The position numbers were made by a program, and so were the translations under genes. Positions 2,695 through 61,993 of a DNA stretch of 63,473 bases are shown here, piece after piece. How positions within the stretch are numbered: position 1 is the first letter of the stretch; every line of letters begins with the position of its first letter. This stretch comes from a virus. Below the pieces are notes generated by a model. The model did no database searches. It was not told the origin of the DNA and worked only from the letters and a program-made list of their open reading frames with translations. Where the stretch lies: the IMG/VR virus record IMGVR_UViG_3300049811_000819, positions 1 through 63,473 of that record. One strand, 5' to 3'.

Positions 2695-2720
2695 GATTTT
2701 TTCCCGATGATGATGTTGAA

Positions 2721-2984
2721 TTAATAGTTTTCGACAATTCCGAGAGCGTTCCGTATCTCGGTTTCTTTACTTGCGCGTCCTTGTCTCCATCCCCGACTAT
2801 AAAACCTGTTTGCAGTGTCACAGTAAAATTGTTTCAAGAAACGAGAGAGACTAAGACTATCGATATTAGCTGGGACAGTAAAGGCAAGTTCCCCATCTGC
2901 GTCGTAAAATTCAATATCTCCTGATTCGGGATTGTCGTAGCGATTTAAATCGTTGATCGTGATAATCGTGTGATTTTCTTGCAT
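2721..2984 (-). CDS. Hypothetical protein
   Basis: 87 residues, no recognised family. The first half (FYDADGELAFTVPANID) looks like a small beta-rich segment and the second half is helical with several Arg/Trp (FYSRGWRQGR). The spacing to both neighbours is short (26 bp to the DHH-like gene) and the direction is the same, so it is probably part of the early leftward operon. AGAAGGAAAT precedes the ATG as a plausible ribosome binding site. Confidence 0.6.
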   Translation of the reverse strand: MQENHTIITINDLNRYDNPESGDIEFYDADGELAFTVPANIDSLSLSRFLKQFYCDTANRFYSRGWRQGRASKETEIRNALGIVENY

Positions 2985-3043
2985 AATTTCCTTCTGATGA
3001 CATTAAAAGATACTCGGCGTTGTCAATGCCCCCTGACAAGCTT

Positions 3044-7804: not shown

Positions 7805-7964
7805 GTTCTCTTTCCTCCGATCTTGGGCGAAATCCCATCTCTACCCCGTTTCGGTAAGTAGTACAAAGCGATTCTTTTAGTTCTCGATCGCCCCGACACG
7901 ATGGGAGAATTTCCCACGCAATCGCCGAAGCAAGTATTGCTCCTAATACTACTATTTTTTTCAC
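7779..7964 (-). CDS. Small protein with N-terminal membrane or lipoprotein-like segment
   Basis: 61 residues starting at GTG, with AAAGGAG about ten bases upstream. The start codon overlaps the stop of the tape measure gene (GTGA), so translation is likely coupled. Residues 1-23 (MKKIVVLGAILASAIAWEIL) form a signal- or membrane-like segment ending PSC, which could be a lipobox-like cysteine, although the context is not canonical. The rest is charged with two further cysteines. An alternative reading frame over the same bases is less likely because it lacks the coupling and ribosome binding site. Confidence 0.55.
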   Translation of the reverse strand: MKKIVVLGAILASAIAWEILPSCRGDRELKESLCTTYRNGVEMGFRPRSEEREHDCRCVGR

Positions 7965-34288: not shown

Positions 34289-35053
34289 ATGGCTAACTCA
34301 AGTTTAGCAGTTTTCGAGTTTCAGTCTAATTCCGTCCGAATTCTCTCAATCGATAATGAGCCGTGGTTTGTGGCGCGGGATGTTTGCAATGTACTTGGTA
34401 TTTTAAATGTTTCGCAAGCTCTTGCGCGATTAGATGGGGACGAAAAGCGTCTTGTGAATAGCGAAGGGGGTATCATTTCAAATGATGATCCAGACGTAAC
34501 AAGGCTTCTAGCTGTTAACGAGTCTGGTATGTACTCCCTTGTACTATCGTCCCGCAAGTCAGAAGCACGGGCTTTCAAAAAATGGATCACTTCAGAAGTC
34601 CTCCCCTCAATCCGAAAAACGGGAGGATATGTGCAACAGGAGTTGTCGGAAACTGAAAAACTGAGGATTAAGCTAGAAAACGCAAAAATCGAGCTAGAAA
34701 TTGCAAAACTGCGGCTAGAAACGACGAAAGTAGATGTAGAGCGAGAGCGTTTTGCGTTGGAATCGAAACAACTAAGTGAGCCAATCCCTCAATTTTCGGA
34801 GATTCCTGTCGCTAATGCGTATAGCTCCAATGCGGCTAATACTATCCAGCGAGCAAAGCTAATCAACGCAATCGCCGCATACATGGACAAATGCGAGCGA
34901 GAACACAAACGGATTCCTGATATTCGGAATTTGCACCAACGATTTCAGCGATGGATTTTGATAACCGACGATGGCAATCCAATTCGGGTCAATTCTGGCA
35001 TACTTAAAAATTTGATGCCAGAAGTCAACGCTTGTCGTGCCGAGCGTCATTAG
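34289..35053 (+). CDS. BRO-N family antirepressor-like protein
   Basis: 254 residues. The N-terminal 115 residues form a BRO-N domain: VRILSIDNEPWFVARDVCNVLGI, RLDGDEKR, VNESGMYSLVLSSRKSEAR, FKKWITSEVLPSIRKTGGY. A heptad-rich coiled coil follows (~120-160). The C-terminal module (LINAIAAYMDKCEREHKR... IRNLHQRFQR ... RVNSGILKNLMPE) matches the end of the Rha-like protein at 33313. BRO/Ant proteins bind DNA and often relieve repression of lytic genes. Confidence 0.8.
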   Translation: MANSSLAVFEFQSNSVRILSIDNEPWFVARDVCNVLGILNVSQALARLDGDEKRLVNSEGGIISNDDPDVTRLLAVNESGMYSLVLSSRKSEARAFKKWITSEVLPSIRKTGGYVQQELSETEKLRIKLENAKIELEIAKLRLETTKVDVERERFALESKQLSEPIPQFSEIPVANAYSSNAANTIQRAKLINAIAAYMDKCEREHKRIPDIRNLHQRFQRWILITDDGNPIRVNSGILKNLMPEVNACRAERH

Positions 35054-43402: not shown

Positions 43403-44125
43403 CTAAGCGCGCTTAATCGTTAACGTCGTCGTTTCGGGCAATCGATATTCGGGATAAGCTAATCGCCATGCCTGATGATGATAAAGATTTTGGAATTCAA
43501 ATCGGGGAGACGGCACTTTTTTGATCTCTAGCCCTAGTTTATTACTTGCCGCTTTCAGTAGTCGCCAGTTAAACGAGGTTTCCCGTACATCGTTAAACTT
43601 GGCAACACGGATAATCGAACTATACTCAAAAAGCTCATCAACCGCTTCAGAAAGAGCATAATTTTCGGCTTCTAGTAGTTGTTTTTGTTCCTCTAGAAGT
43701 TCCATTTTCTCCAATAAGGCGACCTGCTGTTCTGCTAGTTTTAAGTTTTCACGAGCAAGCTCAATCGCTGTTTTGGGTTTAGCGATCGAGTAGCTTCCCG
43801 TTTGACGAATAGAAGGAAGTATCTCGGAGTGCATCCATCGGTTTAGTTGTTTACCCATCTCAGTTCGCGATCGAGATAACAAGAATGTGATCGCCGCATC
43901 ATTGACGATTAGTACACGCTGAACTCCTCCGTTAGTTTCAAGGGAGTAGTCGGCGACTACATCCTTTCCTAAATCCTCTTGTAGTACCGCTTTTGCGTCA
44001 GCCGGGCGCGTTTTGCTTCCCATAGCTTTAAGGACATCGGCTAGTACAAACCACGGATCACCGTCGATCACTACTACCCGGATCGCGTTTCCACTAAAAT
44101 CGAATGGTACAATATTGTTAGACAT
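43403..44125 (-). CDS. BRO-N family antirepressor-like protein
   Basis: 240 residues. BRO-N domain: IRVVVIDGDPWFVLADVLKAMG, VNDAAITFLLSRSRTEM, LNRWMHSEILPSIRQTGSY. A leucine-rich coiled coil (~130-160, QQVALLEKMELLEEQKQLLE) follows, then a distinct C-terminal domain (VRETSFNWRLLKAASNKLGLEIKK...YHHQAWRLAYPEYRLP) that looks like the KilA-C/ANT-type end of phage antirepressors. Preceded by the shared leader. Confidence 0.8.
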   Translation of the reverse strand: MSNNIVPFDFSGNAIRVVVIDGDPWFVLADVLKAMGSKTRPADAKAVLQEDLGKDVVADYSLETNGGVQRVLIVNDAAITFLLSRSRTEMGKQLNRWMHSEILPSIRQTGSYSIAKPKTAIELARENLKLAEQQVALLEKMELLEEQKQLLEAENYALSEAVDELFEYSSIIRVAKFNDVRETSFNWRLLKAASNKLGLEIKKVPSPRFEFQNLYHHQAWRLAYPEYRLPETTTLTIKRA

Positions 44126-48772: not shown

Positions 48773-49477
48773 TTACTCAATACAAAGGTCTTCGGGATGA
48801 ACAGGACAATGAAAAGCGTAACCTTGAAAATATTCTAACCCTAAACTGCTTAAAAGATTAAATTGCAACAAAGACTCAACTCCTTCAGCAACTAAAACTG
48901 TTCCTTGTTCTTGACAGAATTTTGCAAAATACTTAATAAAACTAGCTTTTTCTGAATTGTCAGCGTCAACCAAAAATAGGCGATCAAGTTTGATGATCGA
49001 GGGAGAAATAGAGAATAGTCTATCAAGCCCTGCGTGATTGCAAGGAAAATCGTCAATAGCAATTCTATAGCCTAAGTCTTTTAAAAAACAAATTTCGTTT
49101 AATCCGTTTGGGGAAATAGGATCGCTTTCTGTTATCTCAATAATTACCTTGTCAGGATTTAAAAAAGTCGTCAACTGCTTTATGTGAGTTTTGTTTGCTA
49201 ATTGAATAGGCGAAACATTTACGCAAACTGACGAGATATTGTACCTATTAATATCCTCACTAACAATTTTTGCGATTAATAAATAAAGAGAGAGAAGCTG
49301 ATTAGCTTCAGCCGCAACCTCAAAAATATGTCCTGCGCCCTCTGTTTCAAAACCTTTCCAGCGAAGTAAAGCCTCGCAAGAAAACGGAATCTTTTCTGAA
49401 TTGACAATTGCCTGATAATACGGGCGAATATCGCCTCTGTCTAATGCTTTAAGCAGGTCTGCTGGATTCTTTCTCAC
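48773..49477 (-). CDS. EAL-domain (c-di-GMP phosphodiesterase-like) protein
   Basis: 234 residues from a GTG at 49477 (29-bp overlap with the portal gene; another GTG at 49492 is possible, and the frame is open to 49618). A whole EAL domain is present: CEALLRW, CVNVSPIQL (Asn), IIEITES (Glu), IAIDDF (two Asp), IIKLDR (Lys), LVAEGVES (Glu) and YFQGYAF (Gln). Loop 6, normally DDFGTGYSSL, is DDFPCNHAGL, so dimerisation or activity may be changed. EAL enzymes cleave cyclic di-GMP to pGpG. No GGDEF, sensor or membrane part. Its place between portal and MuF is unusual. Confidence 0.85.
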   Translation of the reverse strand: MRKNPADLLKALDRGDIRPYYQAIVNSEKIPFSCEALLRWKGFETEGAGHIFEVAAEANQLLSLYLLIAKIVSEDINRYNISSVCVNVSPIQLANKTHIKQLTTFLNPDKVIIEITESDPISPNGLNEICFLKDLGYRIAIDDFPCNHAGLDRLFSISPSIIKLDRLFLVDADNSEKASFIKYFAKFCQEQGTVLVAEGVESLLQFNLLSSLGLEYFQGYAFHCPVHPEDLCIE

Positions 49478-50732
49478 TTTTTTCTTTCTCACTTTTTGGT
49501 GTACTTTCTTCTGTGGCGGTGTCGTCAGTTTCGTCGCTCGACATTCCATCAATTGACTCTGACCATTCTGGCCAAAGTATCCGATACTTATTTTGAGCAT
49601 TCTCGGTGTACCAATCAAAGCCTTTGCGTAATACTATCTCTGTGTCGATTGCTTGTTTAATTGCGCTCGTCAGTAGTTGACACCATCCGTACCTCATCCG
49701 AGAGTAGCGGCGATCAGGCGATCGAGATAGCTCTTTAGTTCCCCCCTTTGATTCGAGTCCGGGAAAAAAGTACGAGGGAAAGCCAGGGATAATTAGCCTA
49801 TATCGGCATTGCAAAAGATGATTAATTAATCCCGATAGTTCAGGATTAAGGTTTGCCATTTTGCGAATATCGTGTTTATCGCTAGTTAGTACAAAATCGG
49901 TGATCGTCCCTGATTGTCGCCGTAGCTGTATTTCTTGTTCAAATTTTCGCTTGTTTTCTTCGCTTATGCCCGGGAAGATGTACAAGGTCGGATCACTCGC
50001 AATGTCATCGGCTTTTCTTTGGAGATTGTCGGCCGCTCGTTTTACGTCTGTCCATGCTTCAAGCGATGGTAGCCAAAGCGAACGCCCATAAAGGAATTCG
50101 GGAGAATGCCGGAGATGGATAAGTTTTTCTGGCTCGAAAAAATAATCGGGATCGGAATCGGATAAATACTTTCTTTGTTCAAATCCGATCAGTTGTCCTT
50201 GGTCTGTTTCTTTTCGGAACATCTCGAATGTAGGCAGATAAAGACTCTTGTTTACTCCAAAATCCTTGCTTTTGTTCGGAGATAATCCTTCACGCTCAAT
50301 CCCTAGTTCGATAAAACAATCGCCTTTTCCTAATGTCCATCGCAAGGCTTTTTTAAGCTTGTCCCCTCCGATCACGTGAGAATCTAAAGATTGCTTTCTT
50401 TGGCGTAATTCTTCAGCAATTGCAAAAACTTCAGCGTTTATGGGTGTTTCTTCGTCATCGAGCGTATCGGCAATCGCCCAACCTTGATCGTCCCCGTCGC
50501 TACTAGCGAAAGTATCATCGGCGGCCATTTCGAGGGAATGGAACACCTCATAGCACCATTGGTTAAGTTCGATTAGCTCACGGGAAATTCGAGGGTTACG
50601 AATCGGATTTTCCTCGATTTCTAGGTCGTATCTCCGCGTCATCGATAGAATTCCCGATGAAGCAAGCGATCGCTGTGAACCTCTTAGCGATCCGTCTTGT
50701 TTTTTGTCTTTTTTCTTTTTTGTTTTGGCCAT
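49449..50732 (-). CDS. Portal protein
   Basis: 427 residues. First gene of the head operon. WALTLGKG-type core: LKKALRWTLGKGDCFIELGIE, PTFEMFRKETDQGQLIGFEQ, EPEKLIHLRHSPEFLYGRSLW, LEAWTDVKRAADNLQRKADD, ISEENKRKFEQEI and FFPGLESKGGTKE form the usual portal order (wing, 'hlr....yG.S....', stem helix, crown). The C-terminus is Ser/Glu-rich and overlaps the EAL gene. The N-terminus is extremely lysine-rich (MAKTKKKKDKK). Confidence 0.8.
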   Translation of the reverse strand: MAKTKKKKDKKQDGSLRGSQRSLASSGILSMTRRYDLEIEENPIRNPRISRELIELNQWCYEVFHSLEMAADDTFASSDGDDQGWAIADTLDDEETPINAEVFAIAEELRQRKQSLDSHVIGGDKLKKALRWTLGKGDCFIELGIEREGLSPNKSKDFGVNKSLYLPTFEMFRKETDQGQLIGFEQRKYLSDSDPDYFFEPEKLIHLRHSPEFLYGRSLWLPSLEAWTDVKRAADNLQRKADDIASDPTLYIFPGISEENKRKFEQEIQLRRQSGTITDFVLTSDKHDIRKMANLNPELSGLINHLLQCRYRLIIPGFPSYFFPGLESKGGTKELSRSPDRRYSRMRYGWCQLLTSAIKQAIDTEIVLRKGFDWYTENAQNKYRILWPEWSESIDGMSSDETDDTATEESTPKSEKEKSEKESSRPA

Positions 50733-50764
50733 CGGGAGCTACAATTCTTTCCCTATTCTAAGGG

Positions 50765-50791
50765 AAAAAGACGACTTTGTTAGCCGTCTTT
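50765..50791 (-). terminator. Terminator between the 109-residue gene and the portal
   Basis: Minus-strand stem AAGACGGC / GTCGTCTT with TAACAAA loop, then TTTTTCCC. It should end the leftward transcript from the promoter at 51444, so the head operon needs its own start. Confidence 0.75.
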
Positions 50792-50823
50792 CTTGAAACA
50801 TCACACAAGGAAAGGAAAAAATT

Positions 50824-51153
50824 TTAAAACTCGTGCCACTCTAGCAATTCGTCTGGCACATCATTGTACTTTTGCCAGATAATACTAGGATCATCGTTGG
50901 GATCACCTTCATTGCTAGGAACTTCATAGCTCATCCCGAAGCATTCTATAACATTAGCATAGTTTCTAGTGAGAATAGGAGCAGGGACAACTTCCGATGG
51001 ACGCAACCAGAGGTTTTCTGGTTCGGGGTTTTGGAAGTTCACCGATAGGTATGGGCCATCGGGAATAACTTCTACGATCCGACCTACTCCACGATCAATA
51101 TCTTCCTTGATTTCTTCCGTGTTTATCTTGACAAATTCATCTATTTTAAACAT
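50824..51153 (-). CDS. Hypothetical protein with KOW/SH3-like N-terminus
   Basis: 109 residues. KIDEFVKINTEE...GVGRIVEVIPDGPYLSVNFQNPEPENLWLRPSEVVPAP looks like a small beta-barrel with the 'G.i..i.......v.f' pattern. The remainder is acidic. No family recognised. Four bp after the gene at 51158 and served by the same promoter. Confidence 0.6.
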   Translation of the reverse strand: MFKIDEFVKINTEEIKEDIDRGVGRIVEVIPDGPYLSVNFQNPEPENLWLRPSEVVPAPILTRNYANVIECFGMSYEVPSNEGDPNDDPSIIWQKYNDVPDELLEWHEF

Positions 51154-51157
51154 TGTT

Positions 51158-51412
51158 TTACTCCTCTGGTTGATTCAGGATTGCTTTTTCTTGTTCGATA
51201 GAAATAGCGGAGTAAAACAATTCATCGGTAAGCCGATCTTGCAAAATCTTAGCTACAGCATTAGTAACAAAAAAGAATTTCCCTTGCGCTAAATTTACGG
51301 ATGATACGTTTGGCATTACGTCGTATTCGATAAAAAATACTTCGTAACAGTTGACAAAGTGTTGTCTTCCTTTAGCGTCTTCAATTACTAAAGGACTGAA
51401 TTTATCACTCAT
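51158..51412 (-). CDS. Small hypothetical early protein
   Basis: 84 residues: beta-strand N-terminus (SPLVIEDAKGRQHFVNCYEVFFIEYD) and helical C-terminus (ELFYSAISIEQEKAIL). First cistron after a near-consensus promoter of the TTGACA-operator class, so probably an early gene. No family recognised. Confidence 0.6.
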   Translation of the reverse strand: MSDKFSPLVIEDAKGRQHFVNCYEVFFIEYDVMPNVSSVNLAQGKFFFVTNAVAKILQDRLTDELFYSAISIEQEKAILNQPEE

Positions 51413-51443
51413 GATGACTCCCTTAATTTCTTGACTTAATTAA

Positions 51444-51473
51444 ATCATACATAGTCTTTCTTGAATTGTCAAG
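51444..51473 (-). promoter_or_regulatory. Leftward promoter, operator-like -35
   Basis: Minus strand TTGACA (51467-51472), 17-bp spacer, TATGAT (51444-51449). The -35 is within CTTGACAATTCAAG. Drives the genes at 51158 and 50824. Confidence 0.8.
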
Positions 51474-51491
51474 TAAACCAGGAGAACAATT

Positions 51492-52247
51492 TTAGATAAC
51501 CTGTAAAGCTTTCTCGTAGTACCGAATTCTGTCTTCCAATGCATTAAACCCCCCGTTGACTCGTCGAGTAACTTGTTTTACTGTTGCACCTCGATCAATT
51601 AGTGCGTTCATTTTATTGCGATACCACCAAAACCCAGAGGGGAGAAAAAGGTAATTATCCCGAACGTATTGCCACCCCTCCATCACTCTCTGATCGCCAA
51701 CAAAGTCAGCAAAAGCTTGGTAGTTTGCTCTGCCAGTCATTTGAAGAGCGTCCACGCCACGAAACCGTCGCCCGTCACCAGCAAAGATATTGCCGAGGTC
51801 ACGCCGTCCTTCGTAGGCAGTTCCTGACGCTAATTCAACCATCCAGCGAAGTCCGCCACTTTCGTGGGCAATTTGAGCTAAAAAGTGGCGGACACGGGGG
51901 ATAGTAGTAATATCGAAGCGCTTGAGACAGCGATCGAGAGCTTGGAATTGGCGATCTGTAATTGCTCTCCCAAAAACCGCCTCGCACTGGTCTTTACGGA
52001 CAACAGGAGACTCTATCCCTGTCCCGTCAAAGTGTCCTCGAAAAGCATACCAGTTAAAGCGTCCATCAATCGGAGAATCGACTTCTATTAGGTAGTGACT
52101 TCCTTTGAGCTTTAGCCACTTGTAAATCACTTTTTGCCCCTTAGTAATCGGAACAGACTTAAAATCTGTGGGCAAATTCGGAGCGGAGGAGTCAAGGGGG
52201 TGAGACTTTAAGAGTGTAGGAGCAGTAGCGAGCAGGGTGTTAATCAT
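51492..52247 (-). CDS. GH19 (chitinase-fold) endolysin
   Basis: 251 residues. Residues 34-75 look like an SH3-like binding part (ITKGQKVIYKWLKLKGSHYL...FNWYAFRGHFDGTG). The GH19 lysozyme/chitinase-type domain follows: RVRHFLAQIAHESGGLRW with the catalytic acid Glu129, a second acidic candidate Glu146 (TAYEGR), GDGRRFRGVDALQMTGRANY and the ending WWYRNKMNALIDRG ... ITRRVNGG-like text. It should cleave peptidoglycan glycan strands at lysis. A standalone gene between an early operon and a Rha gene. Confidence 0.85.
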   Translation of the reverse strand: MINTLLATAPTLLKSHPLDSSAPNLPTDFKSVPITKGQKVIYKWLKLKGSHYLIEVDSPIDGRFNWYAFRGHFDGTGIESPVVRKDQCEAVFGRAITDRQFQALDRCLKRFDITTIPRVRHFLAQIAHESGGLRWMVELASGTAYEGRRDLGNIFAGDGRRFRGVDALQMTGRANYQAFADFVGDQRVMEGWQYVRDNYLFLPSGFWWYRNKMNALIDRGATVKQVTRRVNGGFNALEDRIRYYEKALQVI

Positions 52248-52269
52248 TTTGTTAAGTTTCCGTTTTCAC

Positions 52270-53025
52270 TTATTCGCCAATTAACATCTGTCGGCTTACA
52301 CTTTTTCGTTTTTGAGCAAACAAATCTTTAACTGTTTTAATATTTTCTTCTGGAATATAGGGAGCCTGTACTGCTCGCATTCCTTGACAAATTAGGTGAT
52401 CCTGTTTTTGTCGTTTTAGCCAAATTTCTAATTCCCGCCCTGTTTTGAATCCTAATTGTTTGGCCATATCAGCTAGACTTCGCCCAACAAAAGATACGTT
52501 ACGCCCATCTTTGCAAACTACTGTCTCGGTGATAACTTCTTTGACCGGAACGATGGCATTGGGTACACCTTTAATTAAAGCCAGTATCTCAACTCCGTGG
52601 AGCGACGCAATTGCTTCTGATTTGTCTAAGATGTATCGATTATTTTGAGAGATTTCTAACTGCATCTCCAATTCTCGAATGCGATCATTCTGTGCTGGAA
52701 TTACTTCTTTGATTAGTTGTTTCGCTTTCTCAAATCCTTCAACTAATTTTTCTTTGCAGTCTAGAACCTGTTCGGTATTGCGAGAAAACGTCATCAACAA
52801 AGTAGCTTGGTACTCATTTAAGTAACAGTAAGAAATTTCGTAAGTCCCTCCCTGTGGTCGTTTCACCACGTCGATTTCAAATTTTACTGGTTCTTTTCGC
52901 CCCAAACGGTCAAGATATTTCTTAATTGTTTTAAGTAAACTTGCGTGTTCAATCCCTAATTCTTGTGCAATTAAACGGGAATCAACAACTAAAGACTCGT
53001 TAACTGTTACAATCTGAATAGACAT
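52270..53025 (-). CDS. Rha-like phage regulatory protein
   Basis: 251 residues. Same N-terminus as the paralog at 42559 (MSIQIVTVNESLVVDSRLIA), then EHASLLKTIKKYL, YCYLNEYQATLLMTFSRNTEQV and KLVEGFEKAKQLIKEV. The middle differs; the end (KTGRELEIWLKRQKQDHLI...EENIKTVKDLFAQKRKSVSRQMLIGE) is a diverged copy of the paralog's C-terminal domain. Same leader and AGGAG. Probable antirepressor or host-interaction regulator. Confidence 0.8.
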   Translation of the reverse strand: MSIQIVTVNESLVVDSRLIAQELGIEHASLLKTIKKYLDRLGRKEPVKFEIDVVKRPQGGTYEISYCYLNEYQATLLMTFSRNTEQVLDCKEKLVEGFEKAKQLIKEVIPAQNDRIRELEMQLEISQNNRYILDKSEAIASLHGVEILALIKGVPNAIVPVKEVITETVVCKDGRNVSFVGRSLADMAKQLGFKTGRELEIWLKRQKQDHLICQGMRAVQAPYIPEENIKTVKDLFAQKRKSVSRQMLIGE

Positions 53026-53121
53026 AGTGGCTCCTATTAGCCTAAATGTTTAGTCCCCTAGCTTTAACTAGGGGCGATACCAATATTATACCGAAAGTTT
53101 TTGTTAAGAGGCTGAATTGTC
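53026..53121 (-). promoter_or_regulatory. Leader of the second Rha gene
   Basis: Minus strand: TTAACAAAAACTTTCGG, TATAAT, hairpin CCCCTAGTTAAAGCTAGGGG (53055-53074), ACTAAACATTTAGGC, AGGAG, ATG. The stem sequence differs from the CCCCCGATCG stems, but the pairing is kept. Confidence 0.75.
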
Positions 53122-53622
53122 TTACTTTGTTAAGTTTCCGATAGTTTCTGTTAAGGATTTAAGGTACGCAGATATTTTCGTTTGCTGTTGACGAATTTCC
53201 AGTAAATGACGATCATGAGCATCTTGTCGTGATCGTAGTTCGTTAAACTGACGGTCGTAACTGGGCAAGACTAGATCGGCTACCTGTTGTTTTGTTTCGA
53301 CAACTGCAATGCGTTCGGTCAATCCCGTGATTTTGTCACCTAGAGTTTTAACTGAACTATCGAGACTCCCCACACTTTTATCGAGGCGTTCCATCATTTT
53401 TTCAAGCTTACTAGACTGAGTATCGGTAAACTCTGTAGCTTTTTCGATAGTAAGGCGATCTAACTCTTCTGCCTGTGATTTGGATCTGCTCAAAAAATAC
53501 GATACGACTACTGAGCCTATCGCTAACGTAACACTAAAGATTACGCCCCAGTCTTGCACTGTCCAGTCGGATGGGCGATTAATAACTGTTGCGGGCGGCA
53601 CAAGGATAGAGGTGGTTTCCAT
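53122..53622 (-). CDS. Single-pass membrane protein with coiled coil
   Basis: 166 residues. One transmembrane segment at ~25-44 (WGVIFSVTLAIGSVVVSYFL), then a long coiled coil (LDRLTIEKATEFTDTQSSKL ... LTERIAVVETKQQVADLVL) to the end. This topology resembles XhlA/spanin-like lysis accessory proteins, and the endolysin lies 0.9 kb downstream in the same direction. Tail-fibre coiled-coil is an alternative. Confidence 0.6.
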   Translation of the reverse strand: METTSILVPPATVINRPSDWTVQDWGVIFSVTLAIGSVVVSYFLSRSKSQAEELDRLTIEKATEFTDTQSSKLEKMMERLDKSVGSLDSSVKTLGDKITGLTERIAVVETKQQVADLVLPSYDRQFNELRSRQDAHDRHLLEIRQQQTKISAYLKSLTETIGNLTK

Positions 53623-53652
53623 GATGTTTTTTACATTGCTCTATCCGTAATT

Positions 53653-55998
53653 TTACCCCCGAGGTGAGGAAAATAGGAAGTCATTACCAGGCATAAAGTT
53701 CCCAAAAGTAGGAATACCGCCAAAGTTATTCGTATTTACCCAGAGCGTTCGGCACGTCTCGTAAGTACGATCACATCCTGCCGTGAGTCGCACTGAATCG
53801 TGAGTAGCGATCGAGTCGGCCGCCCCAGTAAACAACTCGATCCGTGTGGTTCCCGCAAAGGGAAAAAATTGGGACGTATAAATTGCGTAGGATGCGTTTT
53901 TGTTCTTGCCATCGAGGAATCTGAGCGTTCCCCACGCAAGGTCATTAAAAACTCCGTAAACCTCGACAATACGACGATCAGCGGCACTTTTGATAGAAGT
54001 TGTGTAAGTTGGGACGCTTTTCTGGCACCCCGTCCCGTCACCGTTGTCCTGCCCAAAAAACCACTGGCACAGGGGTGTTACTTTCTCGTCTCGTGATTGC
54101 CGGAGCTTGATACTGGCTTCAGTAAGATTTTCGAGGGTGTAGGTTTCGCCGCTTTTCGAGTTAATTTCCCCGACAAAGCCAATTTGTACCCGCTCGTCAG
54201 GCAAATCTAAGAGCGAGTCGGGAAGATTTCGCCAATCTATAATCGCCGTGATGATCTTGGCCTCTTGGAAACGGGGCGAAAGAATTAGCGGCTCGGTTAG
54301 GTCGTCAATGAATGCACCCCGAAACTCTTCGTTATCTGAATTTAATCCGATAGAGCGATCGAGCGCAGTCGGGTCAAGTGCGCGACGGGACTGATACGTC
54401 ACCCCGTCGATCCTAATATCCCGCGAGTGATTGGTATATCCAAGCTTTTCCCCGTCCGTGAGTTCGATTAGGATAGCTCTACAAAGCGTCAAAACGGGAT
54501 CGGAGAAATCCCCACCTGTTCCCCCATCCCCTCGAATTCCGTCCGTAAAGCGTCGGATTTGGAGTTCTCCTAGTGAATAGACTCTTTGATTAGTTTGGTT
54601 GGAATAATTGAGGGATTTTGAGTTAAATCGAGAGATAACGTTCCCACCGTTCAGGAGATCGGGGAATCGAAAAGTTGCGCCGGTTCCCTTGTGGGAAAGC
54701 CACAAGCAAATTAAATACTCTAGCTCGTTCTGACGCAAGTTTTTTCGTTGCTGTAGAGAATTAGTATCGGCCGCTTTTTGCCGGCGAGCGAACCGTTTCC
54801 GCTCGCCACTGGAAAGCTCGATGATGCTGCTCTGAAATTCGGGGGATAGTGTCGAGGCTTTGTAAAGATTGAGCCTGAATTCGTGAGTAGTGCCGTTCTC
54901 GAATACTTCGATAGGAACAATTGCTGGTTCGATTCTTGACTCACGCAGAACGAGCGAGGGTATCTCGAATACGCCTTGTACCTTAACTGGGTTCCCGTCA
55001 ATAACTTTGACAAGCGGCCGATAGTCAAGGCGATCAGACTCAAACGAACAGAGAATCTTAAAAGTCCCTTCCCATGTCAAAATTCCCGTAGTAGGCGGAC
55101 TGTCGAAAACTACTCGATCAGGAGCTAGAACGTAGCCTGTTAGCTCAGTGTCGCCCTGATAGATTTTCAGCCCAGTATCGGGGAACAAGATCGGGCGATA
55201 GTGAGTGTTTCCCCCGCACGAGTAAGCTTTAGTCAGAATAAACTCGGTTAAAATCCCGTCAGCGCCAGGATAAAGAACGCCTTGTGATGTTGCTCCGTTG
55301 CCAAGGTCTATCTGGTTTCTCGTAGCTTGATCGTCTGATATGTCCTGATAGAGAAAATCTCCCTTTGCTCCTTGCCTTGCTTCGTGGAAATCCAGAAGAC
55401 TATCAAGGTCGTCGGTTCGCAGAGCAGACCGGGAGAGATTGAAGATACGGATCGGGTCTGCCCACTCTACGATCCTCTGTTCGGCATCACCAGTGTTGTC
55501 GTATTCGTAATTCTGAAACTGGATTTCTACACTAAAATCTTTGTCAGGCAGGATTGGAAAATTGGGAAAATCTACGGGGTAGGGACTTGTCGGTTTATGG
55601 GTTGGTTCGACAATTTCCACAATATCGACTATTTCTACATCAAAAGCTGCCAAGCCAAACCCGGCTCCAGACCCCTGAGTAAACCAGTTGGCAGAACCTC
55701 TATTCAGTCCACTAGCGTTAAATCCTACTCCAATTACACCAGTAAAGCGATCGCTGTACTGGGAATCAGAAATAACCCAAATATTTTGTTTTTGCCCGTA
55801 TTTACTAGCTAAAGCCCAGAACTGACTTTGTGTAGAACCGTTTGAAGTGCCGTCAGTATTCTCTATAATTAGCTTGGGATTCTTGTCCCATGAAATGGGC
55901 TGAATAGTACGCCACACCGCAGGGCTACTACTGCCGCCAAATATCCCTTGACTTCTGCAAGTTCCAAAGACGTGATAATAAATACCGGGTACCGACAT
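53653..55998 (-). CDS. DUF2460-DUF2163 baseplate fusion protein
   Basis: 781 residues. Residues ~120-420 contain a DUF2460-like unit (EQRIVEWADPIRIFNLSRSA, LLDFHEARQGAKGDFLYQD, YRPILFPDTGLKIY, GTTHEFRLNL). Residues ~500-781 contain a DUF2163-like unit with the signature ending CDRTYETCRTLWVNTNNFGG, FGNFMPGNDFL. In gene transfer agents these are separate proteins (gp12.. gp13) of the baseplate before the NlpC gene; here they are fused and moved about 46 kb away. The N-terminal ~120 residues are specific. Probable distal tail component. Confidence 0.75.
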   Translation of the reverse strand: MSVPGIYYHVFGTCRSQGIFGGSSSPAVWRTIQPISWDKNPKLIIENTDGTSNGSTQSQFWALASKYGQKQNIWVISDSQYSDRFTGVIGVGFNASGLNRGSANWFTQGSGAGFGLAAFDVEIVDIVEIVEPTHKPTSPYPVDFPNFPILPDKDFSVEIQFQNYEYDNTGDAEQRIVEWADPIRIFNLSRSALRTDDLDSLLDFHEARQGAKGDFLYQDISDDQATRNQIDLGNGATSQGVLYPGADGILTEFILTKAYSCGGNTHYRPILFPDTGLKIYQGDTELTGYVLAPDRVVFDSPPTTGILTWEGTFKILCSFESDRLDYRPLVKVIDGNPVKVQGVFEIPSLVLRESRIEPAIVPIEVFENGTTHEFRLNLYKASTLSPEFQSSIIELSSGERKRFARRQKAADTNSLQQRKNLRQNELEYLICLWLSHKGTGATFRFPDLLNGGNVISRFNSKSLNYSNQTNQRVYSLGELQIRRFTDGIRGDGGTGGDFSDPVLTLCRAILIELTDGEKLGYTNHSRDIRIDGVTYQSRRALDPTALDRSIGLNSDNEEFRGAFIDDLTEPLILSPRFQEAKIITAIIDWRNLPDSLLDLPDERVQIGFVGEINSKSGETYTLENLTEASIKLRQSRDEKVTPLCQWFFGQDNGDGTGCQKSVPTYTTSIKSAADRRIVEVYGVFNDLAWGTLRFLDGKNKNASYAIYTSQFFPFAGTTRIELFTGAADSIATHDSVRLTAGCDRTYETCRTLWVNTNNFGGIPTFGNFMPGNDFLFSSPRG

Positions 55999-56132
55999 AC
56001 TTTTTCTGCCTTTCAGTAATTACAAGGAAAGTTTTCTTAAGGATTTTTTTACAATTAGGGATATCTAGGTTTTTAATAAAAAGTCTAGACCGCATAATGT
56101 AAATGTCGAGCCTAGACACGGATTAATTTCAC

Positions 56133-56294
56133 ATGAAAACTATTTTAGCATCTGTTTTACTCTTTTCTGCTTTTACTGCCCCTGTTTTTGCAACTCCCGA
56201 AGCTAACGGTAAAGAAACTATCACTAACGAAGCTTCTGGATTGTGCTTACCAGGGCGACTTCGTTGCTCTAGCGAGGGTAGTCCCCGTTTTTAA
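56133..56294 (+). CDS. Small secreted cysteine-containing peptide
   Basis: 53 residues. Residues 1-20 are a textbook signal peptide (MKTILASVLLFSAFTAPVFA) with cleavage expected before TPEANG. The mature 33-residue part has two cysteines (SGLCLPGRLRCSS). No family recognised. A terminator follows 47 bp downstream. Upstream hairpin text GTCTAG...CTAGAC at 56083-56117. It is one of very few rightward genes in this part of the window. Confidence 0.6.
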   Translation: MKTILASVLLFSAFTAPVFATPEANGKETITNEASGLCLPGRLRCSSEGSPRF

Positions 56295-56340
56295 TTTTGT
56301 TTTTCTGGTTCCTAGTTTCCTTGGATGGTGATATAGTCTA

Positions 56341-56375
56341 GAAAGCGAGTATAATACTCGCTTTTTTGTTTTTTA
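56341..56375 (+). terminator. Strong rightward terminator
   Basis: Stem AAAGCGAGTAT / ATACTCGCTTT with a 1-nt loop region followed by a T-rich tail (TTTTTTGTTTTTT), downstream of the secreted peptide gene. Confidence 0.85.
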
Positions 56376-56390
56376 AAAGGATTGACACCC

Positions 56391-56555
56391 ATGGGTATTG
56401 TTGGATGTTTTAAACTTTTTTGGGCTTTGATTAAAGAATCTCCTTTGTGGTTTCAGGTGTTTCTATTTAACCTGCAAGTCTATGTCATCGCAGGGCTTTT
56501 CTTCTGGGGAGTCTTCAAGATTGCCGTATTCTTTTTTCATTTGATTTTTAATTAA
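56391..56555 (+). CDS. Putative 54-residue membrane peptide
   Basis: Starts MGIVGCFKLFWALIKESPLW, with AAAAGGA 11 bases upstream, and is strongly apolar and aromatic throughout (VYVIAGLFFWGVFKIAVFFF). It overlaps the leftward RHH gene at its 3' end by 93 bp, so one of the two may not be real. Comparable tiny hydrophobic peptides act as holins or toxins; no direct support here. Confidence 0.35.
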   Translation: MGIVGCFKLFWALIKESPLWFQVFLFNLQVYVIAGLFFWGVFKIAVFFFHLIFN

Positions 56556-56672
56556 TTCTTCCAGCACAGAAGTAATACTCCGAGTACCTTTGTGACTCCT
56601 GAGCCACTCCAAACACTCTGGGGCAATTCGTGCCGAAAATGGGACTCGATCTATTTTTCTATGCTGTTTCAT
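56463..56672 (-). CDS. Ribbon-helix-helix-like protein
   Basis: 69 residues. RVPFSARIAPECLEWLRSHKGTRSITSVLEELIKNQ fits the RHH pattern (short strand, helix, turn, helix). C-terminus is acidic. A small DNA-binding regulator is likely; overlaps the upstream DUF6464-like gene by 14 bp. The antisense overlap with a rightward membrane peptide is odd. Confidence 0.6.
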   Translation of the reverse strand: MKQHRKIDRVPFSARIAPECLEWLRSHKGTRSITSVLEELIKNQMKKEYGNLEDSPEEKPCDDIDLQVK

Positions 56673-56898
56673 TATAATAATTCCGTTCGCTACATTCTAA
56701 ACAAGGAATAGACGGATTGACAGCACACTTTAAAACAGGTTCCTTGGAAAAGTAAGGACAGTTGAACATTTTTAGCTGTTCTTCTGTTGATAATTTTCCC
56801 CATGTTGTAGGCTCAGGATTGTTATTAGACTTAAAAATACTTACTAAAAACATTGCCGTTAGGTAGCCGATGTGAAATAGACCATGGAGTAGTTTCAT
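56659..56898 (-). CDS. DUF6464-like small cysteine protein
   Basis: 79 residues. Residues 1-23 form a membrane segment (FHIGYLTAMFLVSIF), then a Cys-rich ending CPYFSKEPVLKCAVNPSIPCLEC, which matches the 'C.YF....lrCAVNP..pC..C' signature I associate with the cyanobacterial family DUF6464. Function unknown; supports a cyanobacterial host. Confidence 0.65.
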   Translation of the reverse strand: MKLLHGLFHIGYLTAMFLVSIFKSNNNPEPTTWGKLSTEEQLKMFNCPYFSKEPVLKCAVNPSIPCLECSERNYYNETA

Positions 56899-56900
56899 AT

Positions 56901-57047
56901 TTAATTACTTGTTCTAAGTTTAATTACTTGTTCTAAGGTTTCTATCGCCTCATCGAGACCAGAAGCGGGTACTTGCTTAACCAATCCAATAAGCTTTAGG
57001 AACTTTTGGATGTTAGGGTGATTGATGTCTTGGTTTTGAAATTTCAT
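56901..57047 (-). CDS. Small hypothetical protein with 3' direct repeat
   Basis: 48 residues (MKFQNQDINHPNIQKFLKLI, DEAIETLEQVI). Its ATG overlaps the stop of the fibre gene (TAATG), so translation is likely coupled. An 18-bp direct repeat (TTAATTACTTGTTCTAAG at 56901 and 56919) ends the gene and encodes repeated LEQVI/LRTSN text. A fibre-associated chaperone is possible; no family recognised. Confidence 0.55.
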   Translation of the reverse strand: MKFQNQDINHPNIQKFLKLIGLVKQVPASGLDEAIETLEQVIKLRTSN

Positions 57048-57961
57048 TAAGTCAATCCTTGCGTCCATACTCTCATTAAAATTCTCTCACTGCCAAATTC
57101 TCCTACGCATATCCAGAATTGATTGTTACTACCATCAGGATCAGTACCTGTATTGCGATAAATCTGACCAACAGGAATAGCAAGAGATGTTTTTAATAGG
57201 TTTGATGCTACACCAATTGCACGATTAGGACTAGCATCATCTCTAATTACTAAATCGGTTGTGTTTGCTCCTGGTGTTGAGGTTTGACAAGTAATCGAAT
57301 AGTTAGCGATAGAATCAGCACTTGAAGCTGTAGGCACCCTTAAAGCTGTTCTTGTGTTGCTGTTTATTGACGCTATTCTAGCTCCCGTGCGAAATGTATT
57401 GGTTTCGCCCAAAATAAGATAAACAAAATTTAAAGGAGCAAAACTACCAGAATACAACGGATTCTTTAACCAACCATAATAAAAAAAACGGTAGCTACTA
57501 CTATTAAAAGTGTTTCCGTTCCTTCCGATAGAAAACATTGCTAAAGATTCAGTGTTTAAACACCAATATTGTAATTGGGTTGAATCTGGAATATCAAAAA
57601 ACCAGGACTGATTGGCGGCTGGTGAGTTATAACTAACTGTCGCAACCTCTTGACTACTAGCAGTATTACTAGAAGAAAGACTGCTTCCTATTCTAAACCT
57701 ATTCCCAGTAGTAGAAGGGTTATTATTACTACCAATTAAAGCAGGTCTGGCTATAGTTTCCGATAGAGATGGGAGTAATAAGCCCATGGTGTTACTAGAA
57801 GAAATAACCGCACAGGTTTGTCCCAAGCTTGTGTTTATCCAATCACGCAAAGTAGTTTGAGAAATATTTTCGGCACGAGAGTCATTAACAAATAAATTAC
57901 TTCGCCATCCAAAATAATAATTCCCTACATTGTCTTGATTAGTTAAATTAGGTGTACTCAT
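57047..57961 (-). CDS. Tail fibre / receptor-binding protein of the second cassette
   Basis: 304 residues, rich in Ser, Asn, Thr and aromatic residues (RFFYYGWLKNPLYSGSFAPL), typical of a beta-structured fibre tip. No enzymatic motif. It ends the second fibre cassette. Starts with ATGA coupling to the repeat protein. Confidence 0.6.
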   Translation of the reverse strand: MSTPNLTNQDNVGNYYFGWRSNLFVNDSRAENISQTTLRDWINTSLGQTCAVISSSNTMGLLLPSLSETIARPALIGSNNNPSTTGNRFRIGSSLSSSNTASSQEVATVSYNSPAANQSWFFDIPDSTQLQYWCLNTESLAMFSIGRNGNTFNSSSYRFFYYGWLKNPLYSGSFAPLNFVYLILGETNTFRTGARIASINSNTRTALRVPTASSADSIANYSITCQTSTPGANTTDLVIRDDASPNRAIGVASNLLKTSLAIPVGQIYRNTGTDPDGSNNQFWICVGEFGSERILMRVWTQGLT

Positions 57962-58203
57962 GGTGTTCTGTCAAATTGATTAATATCTTGTGAACAATAG
58001 AGAAAAGTACCGTCACTTGCAGATGTAGCCGGTCGCCAATTATCTATTTGTGAATTAGCTAATTGGCAATAGAGAAAAGTACCGTCACTTGCAGATGTAG
58101 CCGGTCGCCAATTATCTATTTGTGAATTAGCTAATTGGCAATATAAGAAAGTTCCATCAGCAGGGATTCCTTGATCTCCCCATAGAACTAAGTGAGAAAA
58201 CAT
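57958..58203 (-). CDS. Tandem-repeat fibre protein
   Basis: 81 residues. After LVLWGDQGIPADGTF, the unit DGTFLYCQLANSQIDNWRPATSAS appears twice and then starts a third time. It is encoded by 72-bp tandem repeats. The repeats probably form stacked elements of a fibre shaft; copy number may vary between isolates. Confidence 0.65.
   Translation of the reverse strand: MFSHLVLWGDQGIPADGTFLYCQLANSQIDNWRPATSASDGTFLYCQLANSQIDNWRPATSASDGTFLYCSQDINQFDRTP
57995..58138. repeat. 72-bp tandem repeat, two perfect copies
   Basis: Copy 1 57995-58066 and copy 2 58067-58138 are identical by eye; a third, diverged partial copy follows to about 58165. Encodes the repeats of the fibre protein. Confidence 0.9.
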
Positions 58204-59162
58204 TAAATATAGCCTCTAGAAACTGAGCCAAAAAGATTTGTCCCGTCGCTAACAAAACTAAATATATCAACAGCATTAGGTGATGTTGATAATATAGGAG
58301 TTAGCGAAAATTTATAAGCAGAATTAAACGTTAATGTTCTGTTTCCTGTGCTATCTTGTTTAACAATCAAAATATAAGTTCCTCCTGCCTGAATATTAGT
58401 AGGGGCGGCTAAAGTTCTGTTACCTCCAAGTGTTACAGTAGCTACTTGCTGAGTATTTAAATTCCAGTTAATGGTTGCTCCATCGGTTAAACTAGCAAGG
58501 GGAAATCTTTGCTGTCTGGTGAAATCGTTGACGGCAGAAATTCTAGCTCGATCACTAATTTGTGCCTGTAGTTTTTGCAAGGCTGTCAACAAAGTATCGG
58601 TAGCAGCAATTGCTGTATTAGTGCCTGTAGTCAAGCCTGTTAAAACAGTTGCTCTAACCTTGTCAAAGAAATCAAAAAATCCTTTATCCCCTGATTCTTT
58701 TCCGTAAAAAGTGTCGTCAGCAGGATCGCCAGCGATACTTTCTGCTGCGTCAACAATGCCATCGTTGTCTGTGTCGTAAACTGAGCGATTCATGTCACCG
58801 ATGGCAGCGACCCATGCAGTCCCATCAAATACAAGGTCTGAGCCAGAAAGGAGCGACACTTTTAGCCCTGCAAAAGGTGCGTAAAATTTCCACGATCCTG
58901 ATACAGGTTGTCCGTTTGCACTGATTACTGGGCAAGCGATCTGGTTAGTTTTTCCTGCCCATGCACCTGATGCGCCCGTGGGAACAAGGTAAAAAGAATC
59001 GGGAGTTAGTCCGCTTGTCGGGGGCGTAGTTAAGGTTCGAGAAATAATCGGAGCGCGTCCAACGCTCACAAGACGGAATAACTCGTTAGCGACTTGCTCC
59101 TTAAATTCTTGGGAAGAATTTAGTAAAAGCCCGTTATCTCCCAGTATTCTCGCTGTAGTCAT
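58203..59162 (-). CDS. Tail fibre protein with DUF2793-like segment
   Basis: 319 residues from the ATG at 59162 (GAGGAG upstream). LTPDSFYLVPTGASGAWAGK, ISANGQPVSGSWKFYAPFAG and LVFDGTAWVAA follow the DUF2793 fibre/tail pattern; YDTDNDGIVDAAES is a calcium-binding-like DxDxDG loop. The C-terminal half has beta-strand text (LGGNRTLAAPTNIQAGGTYI) seen in many fibres. First gene of the second fibre cassette; overlaps the helicase end by 29 bp. Confidence 0.7.
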   Translation of the reverse strand: MTTARILGDNGLLLNSSQEFKEQVANELFRLVSVGRAPIISRTLTTPPTSGLTPDSFYLVPTGASGAWAGKTNQIACPVISANGQPVSGSWKFYAPFAGLKVSLLSGSDLVFDGTAWVAAIGDMNRSVYDTDNDGIVDAAESIAGDPADDTFYGKESGDKGFFDFFDKVRATVLTGLTTGTNTAIAATDTLLTALQKLQAQISDRARISAVNDFTRQQRFPLASLTDGATINWNLNTQQVATVTLGGNRTLAAPTNIQAGGTYILIVKQDSTGNRTLTFNSAYKFSLTPILSTSPNAVDIFSFVSDGTNLFGSVSRGYI

Positions 59163-60957
59163 CTCCAAACTCCTCGCGCATACACTTTTCTATCCAATCG
59201 GGATTACTACAGCAACGGTTCAAGTAATCCTGATAACTTTTCACGTCATCTTTAGTATAATTCGATCCGAACACTGCGTATAATTTCCAGAATGTTTTAG
59301 GCCACCATTGAGACAGCTTATAGATCCTGACGATTTCATATCGCGCCCATTCTGGTTTTTTGTTCTTATTGTACGCTTCTCGCCTTGCCTGCCGATAAGC
59401 GTAGTACAGTTTTTTGTCTTCGTCTGGAAGTATTTGCTGAAGCTTTTCGTTGGCGATCCGTTTTTCTGTTTTTCCAGAAACAAACTCGAATCCACACCCT
59501 GGACAGATACGAGCGGAGGCGTGAACTATACATCCACAATTCTCGCATTCCTTGATAGGAGCCTCACCTTTTTCAAGGTTACTAGAATTTCTTAGCGCAG
59601 GATAGGTCACGTCCTCGATAAACCCGTGTCGTTTGACATTGCCTGCCTGATCTAGGACAAGGCAATCGGTTTTTTTAAGCCGTGGGCAAAGTCGCTGGCC
59701 GCGCCCTGTCATCTGAATATAAAGCGTGACGCTTTTAGTTGGGCGGGAATGAATAATACAGCTAATTTCAGGTAGATTAAAGCCGATTCCGCAAGTATTA
59801 ATGTTTATAATCCCTCGTGTTTTTAGTTCTGCTACACTTTTAAAAATCTCCCGTCTTTCCTCGGATGGGGTTTCGGCGGTAATCACAGAGACAGGGATTC
59901 CCTGATCAGTAAATTCTTTCGCAAGCGAGGCGGCGTGAACTTTTCCTGCTGCAAAACAAACAAACTGACGATTTTGCCCAAGCCGCTTGTATTCCGAGAC
60001 AATCGACTGTACCGCCTCTAAGCATCGGGTTTCTAGTTCTGCTGCATCAAAATCGCCACCTGTGCTTTTAACTCCTTTTGTGTCGATCTGGTCTTTTGTA
60101 GAGAAATAAACGCATCCTACGAGCGCGCCGCGTTCGATCATCTCTTTCGGGGTCGGGCCGGTTACTTGTGTCTCGAAAATGTCTCCTAGTTCTTCGCGCT
60201 TTGATAATCGCCATGGGGTCGCTGTTAGTCCGATGACGATTCGATTATCCGATGATAGTTTTTTCCCTGCGAATAAATGTTCTTGTTTCCGCAAAATTTC
60301 CCACGCAGAATTTAATTCTTGCATCTTCTCTTTACTTCCCCCGTGATCGGGGGGATGGAGAAGCGCAAGAGATTTATATTTTTGCTTTGCCTCCTCAAAA
60401 GTGACTCGATACTCAAATTCTAAGTCTTCTCTTTCGACAGCGATCCCTAAAGTAGCTAATTCGCTAGAAATCTCTTTTATCGAGGTTGTCTGTTTTCCAC
60501 CTTTAAGATTGTTGAAATTGCCTCGAAACCACTGACAATATCCAGACAAATGTACCTCGTCAAGCAGAATAACTTCGGGATTGAACCACGAAATATCTCG
60601 CCTTGCTAAGGTTTGAGTTGTGGCAATCTGTACTTTTTGTAGGCGGTCTTCTTTGTATTCCCCAGCGATTACTCCTGCGGTTAATCCGAATTTTTTAAGT
60701 ACCTCTATGGTCTGGTCGATTAAACAGGTAAACGGCACAACAATTAAAGTACGGCGTTGTCTTTTAATTGCTGCATCATAGATGATTTGGCAGAATAAAA
60801 TAGTTTTTCCGTATGAGCAAGGTGCAATAACTAGAACTCGCTTAAATCCTGCTTTAAGCTGATCATAAATCTCTTTTTTAAGAGCTTTTTGATCAGGGCG
60901 AAGTTGAATTGTCGGAGTTGGGATTACAGGAGTTTCTTTAAGTAGTGCTAGAGCCAT
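59134..60957 (-). CDS. SF2 DEAD/DEAH-type helicase with J-domain insertion and zinc ribbon
   Basis: 607 residues from the ATG at 60957 (AAGGAGAG upstream). Motifs: Walker A APCSYGKT (45-52), motif II LLDEVH (131-136), motif III GLTATP (243-248), VI QMTGRGQR (415-422). Between II and III there is YKSLALLHPPDHGGSKEKM followed by QELNSAWEIL (~194-222), a J-domain-like helix pair with HPPD in place of HPD. A four-cysteine ribbon (CENCGC...CPGCGF, 471-489) ends the helicase core. Expected role in replication, recombination or DNA repair. Confidence 0.85.
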   Translation of the reverse strand: MALALLKETPVIPTPTIQLRPDQKALKKEIYDQLKAGFKRVLVIAPCSYGKTILFCQIIYDAAIKRQRRTLIVVPFTCLIDQTIEVLKKFGLTAGVIAGEYKEDRLQKVQIATTQTLARRDISWFNPEVILLDEVHLSGYCQWFRGNFNNLKGGKQTTSIKEISSELATLGIAVEREDLEFEYRVTFEEAKQKYKSLALLHPPDHGGSKEKMQELNSAWEILRKQEHLFAGKKLSSDNRIVIGLTATPWRLSKREELGDIFETQVTGPTPKEMIERGALVGCVYFSTKDQIDTKGVKSTGGDFDAAELETRCLEAVQSIVSEYKRLGQNRQFVCFAAGKVHAASLAKEFTDQGIPVSVITAETPSEERREIFKSVAELKTRGIININTCGIGFNLPEISCIIHSRPTKSVTLYIQMTGRGQRLCPRLKKTDCLVLDQAGNVKRHGFIEDVTYPALRNSSNLEKGEAPIKECENCGCIVHASARICPGCGFEFVSGKTEKRIANEKLQQILPDEDKKLYYAYRQARREAYNKNKKPEWARYEIVRIYKLSQWWPKTFWKLYAVFGSNYTKDDVKSYQDYLNRCCSNPDWIEKCMREEFGDDYSENTGR

Positions 60958-60993
60958 GTTTTTTCTCTCCTTGTTTTTTTTTTGTGAAAGCAA

Positions 60994-61419
60994 TTAGCAA
61001 TTTCTATTAAGATTAGAATCTAGCCACAACTTTTCTAAGCTTTTGGTCTCCCATTTTTCAAAACCGTAGGGATAACCCATTAACTCTAGCAAGGAGGAGA
61101 GATTATTCCAACGAGCATAAAGAGGAGATGCAATTATTGCTTTTTTTACGGCTTTTTGGGGTAGCTGAAGATATACTTTTAATTGTCTAGGGTCATCGCA
61201 AAATTTACGCCCGTTCCAGAATTGCTTGACTTGCGAATCTTCTACTGATACTATGCCATACAATTTTTGCAAGATAGTATCAGGACAACGTACTGACAAG
61301 CCTTGAAAGCTTGCTAGTATTTCTTCTATTGACTGATTCAATGACTGATTTTTTGATTCAGCAAAAGACTTTAGATGCTGAATCAAATCATTGTTTAGGT
61401 AAATTTCGATTTTTTCCAT
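60994..61419 (-). CDS. Hypothetical protein with RHH-like N-terminus
   Basis: 141 residues. MEKIEIYLNNDLIQHLKSFAESKNQSLNQSIEEILASF fits a ribbon-helix-helix dimer. The C-terminal two-thirds (QLPQKAVKKAIIASPLYARWNNLSSLLELMGYPYGFEKW) are helical and not recognised. It is 36 bp upstream of the helicase and could regulate it. Confidence 0.6.
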   Translation of the reverse strand: MEKIEIYLNNDLIQHLKSFAESKNQSLNQSIEEILASFQGLSVRCPDTILQKLYGIVSVEDSQVKQFWNGRKFCDDPRQLKVYLQLPQKAVKKAIIASPLYARWNNLSSLLELMGYPYGFEKWETKSLEKLWLDSNLNRNC

Positions 61420-61568
61420 GTCACTTACAGAAAAACTTCAAACAACATATCGTGATATATTTTGGCTAAAAACATATCTTTTTCTGTTATTAAAAGATGC
61501 CAATTTTTTATTGACAACCAAAAAAGTTTCCAACCAAAAAACCAATACTTTAGTTTAATCATTATCTT

Positions 61569-61838
61569 TCATTTACTTTTTACTTCTTCTTGCAGTGCGA
61601 TTGCGCTATGAATTGACAAAGGTATATCGTTGTCTAACAGTTCGAGGGTTTTGTCGTCTTCCTTGACGTTTGTTCGTGCGTCAAGTAAGCTGTTTTGATA
61701 TTTACCTGTTAGCTTGATTTGCAAAAGGCTTCTTTTTCCTACTGGCGATATGGATTCTATCTCTCCTGCTAAAAATAAAGGGCTAACATCGTATAACAGG
61801 ACTTTATCGCCGCACTTTAGGTCTTTTACTGTTTTCAT
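61569..61838 (-). CDS. Small hypothetical early protein
   Basis: 89 residues from the ATG at 61838, chosen because GGAG lies 7 bases upstream and because it overlaps the preceding stop (ATGA). Beta-rich N-terminus (GDKVLLYDVSPLFLAGEIESI) like a small barrel. Last cistron of the operon starting at 62209. The 149-bp gap after it (61420-61568) contains AT-rich text and no gene. Confidence 0.6.
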   Translation of the reverse strand: MKTVKDLKCGDKVLLYDVSPLFLAGEIESISPVGKRSLLQIKLTGKYQNSLLDARTNVKEDDKTLELLDNDIPLSIHSAIALQEEVKSK

Positions 61839-61993
61839 AGTTTTCTCCATTCCTTTAAATTGGCTTTGCAAGTTAACAGATGGGCTTTAAATCGTTCAAC
61901 GGACTCTCTTTCTTCGATTTGCTTAACAATTCCTTTGGAGTTTTCGGGATCGTGTTCGCTTACGGCTTTCCAAGAAATAGCTTTTTCTCTCAT
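61835..61993 (-). CDS. Small hypothetical protein
   Basis: 52 residues (start MREKAISWKA, helical KGIVKQIEERESVERFKAHL). AAGGTG precedes the ATG, and the stop overlaps the next start (ATGA), so this short frame is a genuine coupled cistron by its position. No family recognised. Confidence 0.65.
   Translation of the reverse strand: MREKAISWKAVSEHDPENSKGIVKQIEERESVERFKAHLLTCKANLKEWRKL

Follow-up and report, generated by a model that had tools for sequence, protein, structure and literature searches.

Polyomavirus large T antigen, a helicase of superfamily 3 (SF3), is a viral helicase with a J-domain of its own, and RB43 057w, also named Rki, is a phage J-protein that stands alone, outside any helicase. 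The J-domain of T antigen is N-terminal, and the binding of Hsc70 by T antigen influences viral DNA replication (PMC8894888). For 057w, interaction with the host DnaK has been demonstrated (PMC3486835). J-like proteins such as Pam16 keep the J fold without a working HPD motif (PMC10939069), and the trypanosome proteins TbPam16 and TbPam18, which have inactive J-domains, regulate mitochondrial DNA replication (PMC11349236). DNA polymerases of HMO-2011-type phages contain a partial DnaJ central domain (PMC9038755). E. coli RadD (YejH), finally, is an SF2 DNA repair protein for which SSB binding and RecA-dependent strand exchange are described (PMC10238739, PMC8887467). Already known, then, are phage J-proteins, a viral helicase whose J-domain is N-terminal and a phage polymerase that contains the zinc region of DnaJ.

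The protein described here resembles each of these in part. By analogy with T antigen it is a viral helicase that carries its own J-domain, but it belongs to SF2 and holds the domain within its lobe 1, not at the N-terminus. Its J-domain is like that of 057w, except that it is built into a helicase. The HMO-2011-type polymerase, a phage replication enzyme, likewise has a piece derived from DnaJ inserted in it, although what it has taken up is the zinc region with CXXCXGXG repeats and not a J-domain. Pam16 and the TbPam16/TbPam18 pair share with it a J fold without a working HPD, but they are separate membrane proteins with no helicase, and the likeness is one of analogy only. RadD is the closest in fold, in best NCBIfam model and in the zinc ribbon that follows lobe 2; the phage protein differs from it in carrying the J insert and in its far lower score against the RadD model. 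In the literature searched, which did not extend to the main review of phage J-proteins, we found no description of a J-domain inside an SF2 phage helicase, with repeated loss of HPD.

The DNA analysed ('the window') is a stretch of 63,473 nt, IMG/VR record IMGVR_UViG_3300049811_000819. Residue numbers count throughout from an in-frame TTG at 60993; the open reading frame from this codon (60993-59134, minus strand) would yield 619 amino acids. The ATG at 60957, given as the start in the preliminary description of this locus, is the better choice: this methionine is also where the alignment with sister-clade relatives begins. The helicase features are:

59134..60957, minus strand: gene for the RadD-like SF2 helicase, 607 amino acids from the ATG at 60957
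60802..60825, minus strand: motif I (Walker A), APCSYGKT, residues 57-64
60550..60561, minus strand: motif II, DEVH, residues 145-148
60214..60234, minus strand: motif III region, IGLTATP, residues 254-260 (TAT at 257-259)
59692..59985, minus strand: second RecA-like lobe, Helicase_C by Pfam, residues 337-434
59494..59547, minus strand: zinc-ribbon cysteines 483, 486, 497 and 500, kept in ten aligned family members

Both RecA-like lobes are recognized by Pfam (ResIII, 2.8e-15; Helicase_C, 1.3e-15), and the protein matches the DNA helicase family phrog_16 (3.1e-74). RadD is the closest solved fold (Foldseek E 1.5e-19; VIA Z 26.3, rmsd 4.5 over 336 residues, model residues 28-463) and also the best NCBIfam model (NF053632, 3.3e-29), although the score of 101.6 bits falls far short of the 720 bits required for an equivalog. 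The fold match of the model and the four conserved cysteines together give a RadD fold with SF2 motifs and a zinc ribbon. No DnaB or loader family appears among the Pfam, phrog and NCBIfam matches listed. The enzyme is thus an SF2 helicase closest to RadD, neither a replicative helicase nor a loader and, by this likeness, a motor of the repair or recombination type. It is probably a recombination or replication-fork helper of the phage. Membership in a T-antigen-like group or among lambda-type loaders was considered and rejected, the enzyme being SF2 and RadD-like. The suggestion that the phage might couple helicase loading to chaperone action, as lambda does with separate proteins, is not supported by this assignment.

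About 110 residues separate motif II from motif III in the window helicase, and a J-domain accounts for about 85 of them. Its parts, with helices taken from the structure model, are:

60268..60480, minus strand: inserted J-domain, residues 172-242, with predicted helices at 172-181, 199-212 and 221-236
60358..60399, minus strand: predicted J-domain helix II, residues 199-212
60346..60357, minus strand: HPPD loop, residues 213-216, joining helices 199-212 and 221-236
60286..60333, minus strand: predicted last J-domain helix, residues 221-236

Both peptides in which a J-domain pattern had originally been noticed lie between these motifs, and the insert in the first RecA-like lobe is, as proposed, a true J-domain. 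Pfam DnaJ (PF00226) matches residues 196-238 (E=2.8e-4). The score, 21.4 bits for the protein and 24.8 for the whole record, is below the curated cut-off of 27.8 bits; relatives L001 and L006 exceed the cut-off at 27.9 bits, as do seven of 16 records when searched whole. In profile-profile comparison with six J-domains, the window insert alone reaches 98.1% probability and an alignment of six inserts (five with HPD, and the window) 98.9%, whereas none of 100 versions of the latter alignment with shuffled columns exceeded 4.7%. Among solved sequences, the best match of the insert is the J-domain of polyomavirus T antigen (1faf, E 1.5e-4). A model of the whole helicase from 54 sequences is confident (mean pLDDT 82.3, pTM 0.75) and predicts three helices, as in a J-domain, in blocks of pLDDT 81-91, with the loop block at 69; an earlier model from five close sequences, at pLDDT 40, was not used. 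The linker between helices I and II spans 182-198, longer than is usual in J-domains, and the GG that follows the motif is kept.

One could suppose, instead, an ordinary helical helicase insertion that merely happens to look like a J-domain. The sub-threshold Pfam score of the window would fit this, as would the 69.6% that HPD-less inserts reach in the profile comparison and the lack of a Pfam DnaJ match in the two HPD-less proteins scanned. Against it stand the relatives that exceed the cut-off, the distance between the profile probabilities and all 100 shuffles, helices that fall as they do in a J-domain, and an HPD motif that is correctly placed in 13 of the 59 insert-bearing loci. Chance resemblance is largely refuted, and we give it hardly any weight. 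PDB fold searches with the whole helicase listed no J-domain chain among their matches, which are filled by helicase lobes; this is not evidence against a J fold.

Nor is the insert a normal feature of such helicases, since homologs outside one clade lack it. The spacing between motifs II and III is 24-36 residues in seven of nine distant phage relatives, in the cyanobacterial plasmid homologs measured (a set without L041 and L038), and in 61 of 67 viral relatives examined, the other six ranges beginning after motif II. The remaining distant phage relatives (L014, L018 and L019 are named) gave no match to the pattern for motif III, and L018 is seen by alignment to be without the insert. A survey of 80 loci found 59 with the insert and three without, 18 being unreadable by motif search. 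In a tree of the helicase built without the insert region, all insert-bearing rows form one clade (support 100/100), to which the insert is confined, and the window sits inside an otherwise HPD-bearing group (99/99, and 97/98 in a second tree).

The preliminary description read the loop as HPPD rather than HPD. HPD is indeed absent; the proline, however, is not an added residue. All nine close relatives (L001-L009, about 80% identical to the window) read LLHHPDHGG and the window reads LLHPPDHGG, so the ancestral HHPD has undergone a change of His to Pro, with Pro214 (60352-60354) in the position of the HPD histidine. The codon change is CAC to CCC, a single A-to-C substitution (CATCACCCCGAT in L001, CATCCCCCCGAT in the window). 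An error of sequencing or assembly in the run of C, in a phage that really has HPD, might be suspected, inasmuch as HPPDHGG was found in no other viral contig (a search that may not cover the records closest to the window) and the window copy also deviates at the otherwise constant glycine of motif I. But the difference is a substitution without change of length, in a gene whose frame is intact and which is under purifying selection, and we regard an error as very unlikely.

That second deviation is the APCSYGKT of Walker A, in which Ser replaces a Gly found in 34 of 34 readable relatives. In all nine of L001-L009, Walker A is interrupted between GK and T by an intein (3101-4123 in L001), truncated in L002 and L003; homing-endonuclease domains are present in the inteins of the three proteins scanned. 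No intein interrupts Walker A in the window or in the sister clade. The serine, which adjoins the intein site of the relatives, might protect against homing or might weaken the ATPase.

HPD is present in 13 of the 59 insert-bearing loci: L001-L009, L216, and the more distant L080, L081 and L083, which keep it at 39-40% identity to the window. The other 46 are HPD-less and read IHAESKE or close variants. In the sister clade, HHPD was removed by a 12-base in-frame deletion (CATCATCCAGAT, with L216 as reference), and the GG and T/S that follow were changed to AES. L216 (helicase at 2001-3821) retains HHPD and nests within the deletion clade, beside L055 (90/84). Alleles with and without HPD are therefore found together among close relatives, either because an old polymorphism was retained or because of recombination, and the number and order of the losses are not certain. 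Since L216 and the three distant relatives keep HPD, the insert was probably acquired with a working motif that was lost at least twice, with purifying selection thereafter.

The selection can be followed in pairs of sequences. Given as dN/dS, the values for insert and helicase core among HPD-less loci are 0.032/0.775 and 0.019/0.640 (L054-L056), 0.026/0.446 and 0.032/0.657 (L054-L073), and 0.032/1.486 and 0.032/0.635 (L056-L073); for the window they are 0.105/2.731 and 0.082/1.660 with L008, and 0.114/0.731 and 0.079/1.569 with L001, where the ratio is higher in the insert, dS being near saturation in several of the pairs compared. The dN/dS of the insert is low in the HPD-less pairs and near that of their helicase core, and the J-domain has thus been kept under purifying selection after loss of the switch.

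Such persistence would also be expected if the J fold had served from the start only to prop the protein with its helices or to clamp DNA, its inherited HPD never used. Two further observations are in keeping with this. No Hsp70 gene was found in 16 records, which are possibly fragments. And the residues just before HPD, at the end of helix II, are a hydrophobic LLH in the L001-L009 clade, which lacks basic residues there; E. coli-type J-domains have basic residues at this place. However, HPD is kept in L001-L009 and again in L080, L081 and L083; at 39-40% identity, three unused residues would be expected to drift. We consider a motif that was never used improbable.

What, then, might the motif have been used for? 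We favor, as likely, the reading that a RadD-like SF2 helicase gained a J-domain in its motor lobe, that the domain tethers DnaK in the members that have HPD, and that the window copy lost the switch and retained the module. The J-domain would have entered the loop of lobe 1 between motifs II and III. In HPD-bearing members, for which recruitment of DnaK is plausible from their sequences, it would tether the host DnaK to the helicase; since the 16 records hold no Hsp70 gene, the partner would be the host's. The tethered DnaK could remodel the nucleoprotein complex in which the helicase works, involving RecA, SSB or replisome proteins. In the window copy, stimulation of DnaK would have been lost, and the insert is most readily understood as a J-like module with a structural or adaptor role, expected to position DNA or a partner beside the motor.

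Recruitment of DnaK had been proposed for the window protein itself, together with a doubt about stimulation, and of the two it is the doubt that has gained ground. Were the PPD insert still an active co-chaperone, coupling the helicase to chaperone action, the conservation of helices II and III and of the GG after the motif would be accounted for, and nine close relatives do have the full motif. Replacement of the HPD His (by Gln) or Asp, however, abolishes Hsp70 stimulation in every system tested (PMC8215388), and in work on a phage J-domain the H38Q variant was the control without activity (PMC3486835). In the window this histidine is proline; moreover, the sister clade has deleted HHPD altogether and still retains the insert, and the enzyme is RadD-like and no loader. 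Recruitment by the window copy is accordingly unlikely on its sequence, and that it remains an active co-chaperone is a reading to which we attach little credence. More tentatively, we can imagine an Hsp70 tethered beside the ATP site that strips RecA, SSB or replisome proteins while the motor runs, with HPD toggled by tiny mutations, perhaps tracking host chaperones, and with the C-terminal fusions of cyanobacterial plasmids as an independent event; taken as a whole, this extended scenario is possible but doubtful.

These fusions are of a different form. A Crinalium plasmid (L039, 1354-3264) encodes a RadD-like helicase that ends in a J-domain with HPD intact (PF00226, 8.9e-12, 45.4 bits, over the cut-off). 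In a Gloeothece plasmid (L036, 1462-3345) the C-terminal match is weak (17.9 bits) and HPD is lost. L011, L038, L041 and L042 appear by eye to have degenerate C-terminal remnants, with no Pfam DnaJ match in L011 and L038, the two that were scanned. The J-domains of the cyanobacterial plasmids are C-terminal and so arose apart from the insert, and they suggest that the pairing of J-domain and helicase is useful rather than accidental.

Separate J genes were also seen. In Alteromonas phage R7M (L034, 1489-2148), a DnaJ gene and the beginning of an SF2 helicase gene share a few bases, and this adjoining helicase carries the same motifs. A general pairing of J genes with such helicases was rejected on a scan of 212 loci, which set aside insert-bearing loci, J genes that came from J searches, and purposely fetched Pseudoalteromonas J genes; beyond these, only L039 and L036 were positive, so the R7M neighborhood stands alone. 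In Microcystis phage Mae-JY30 (L033, 1587-2168), a protein has a C-terminal J-like part with HPD present (Pfam 17.6 bits, under the cut-off), and its gene directly precedes that of an ATP-binding protein.

As to the phage itself, a DNA similarity search with 49449-61871 gave no match among phages. Cyanobacterial plasmids and a Cylindrospermopsis phage are among the nearest named relatives that cover at least 80% of the helicase protein, which hints weakly at a host among the cyanobacteria. A gene resembling an integrase, together with three that match anti-repressor or transcriptional-regulator families (1-1107; 34289-35053; 43403-44125; 52270-53025), suggests a temperate phage. The window also holds an open reading frame of 4583 amino acids (7961-21712), in which Pfam recognizes nothing but protein kinase domains, at around residues 1130-1220, and one of 81 amino acids (57958-58203) made up largely of near-identical tandem units of 24 amino acids (DGTFLYCQLANSQIDNWRPATSAS).

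In this family the motor lobe of a viral SF2 helicase has had a J-domain grafted into it, and close relatives supply natural HPD-plus and HPD-minus alleles. These alleles form ready-made pairs for testing whether Hsp70 can be put to direct use by a helicase, and they bear equally on the role left to a J-domain after loss of its DnaK switch.
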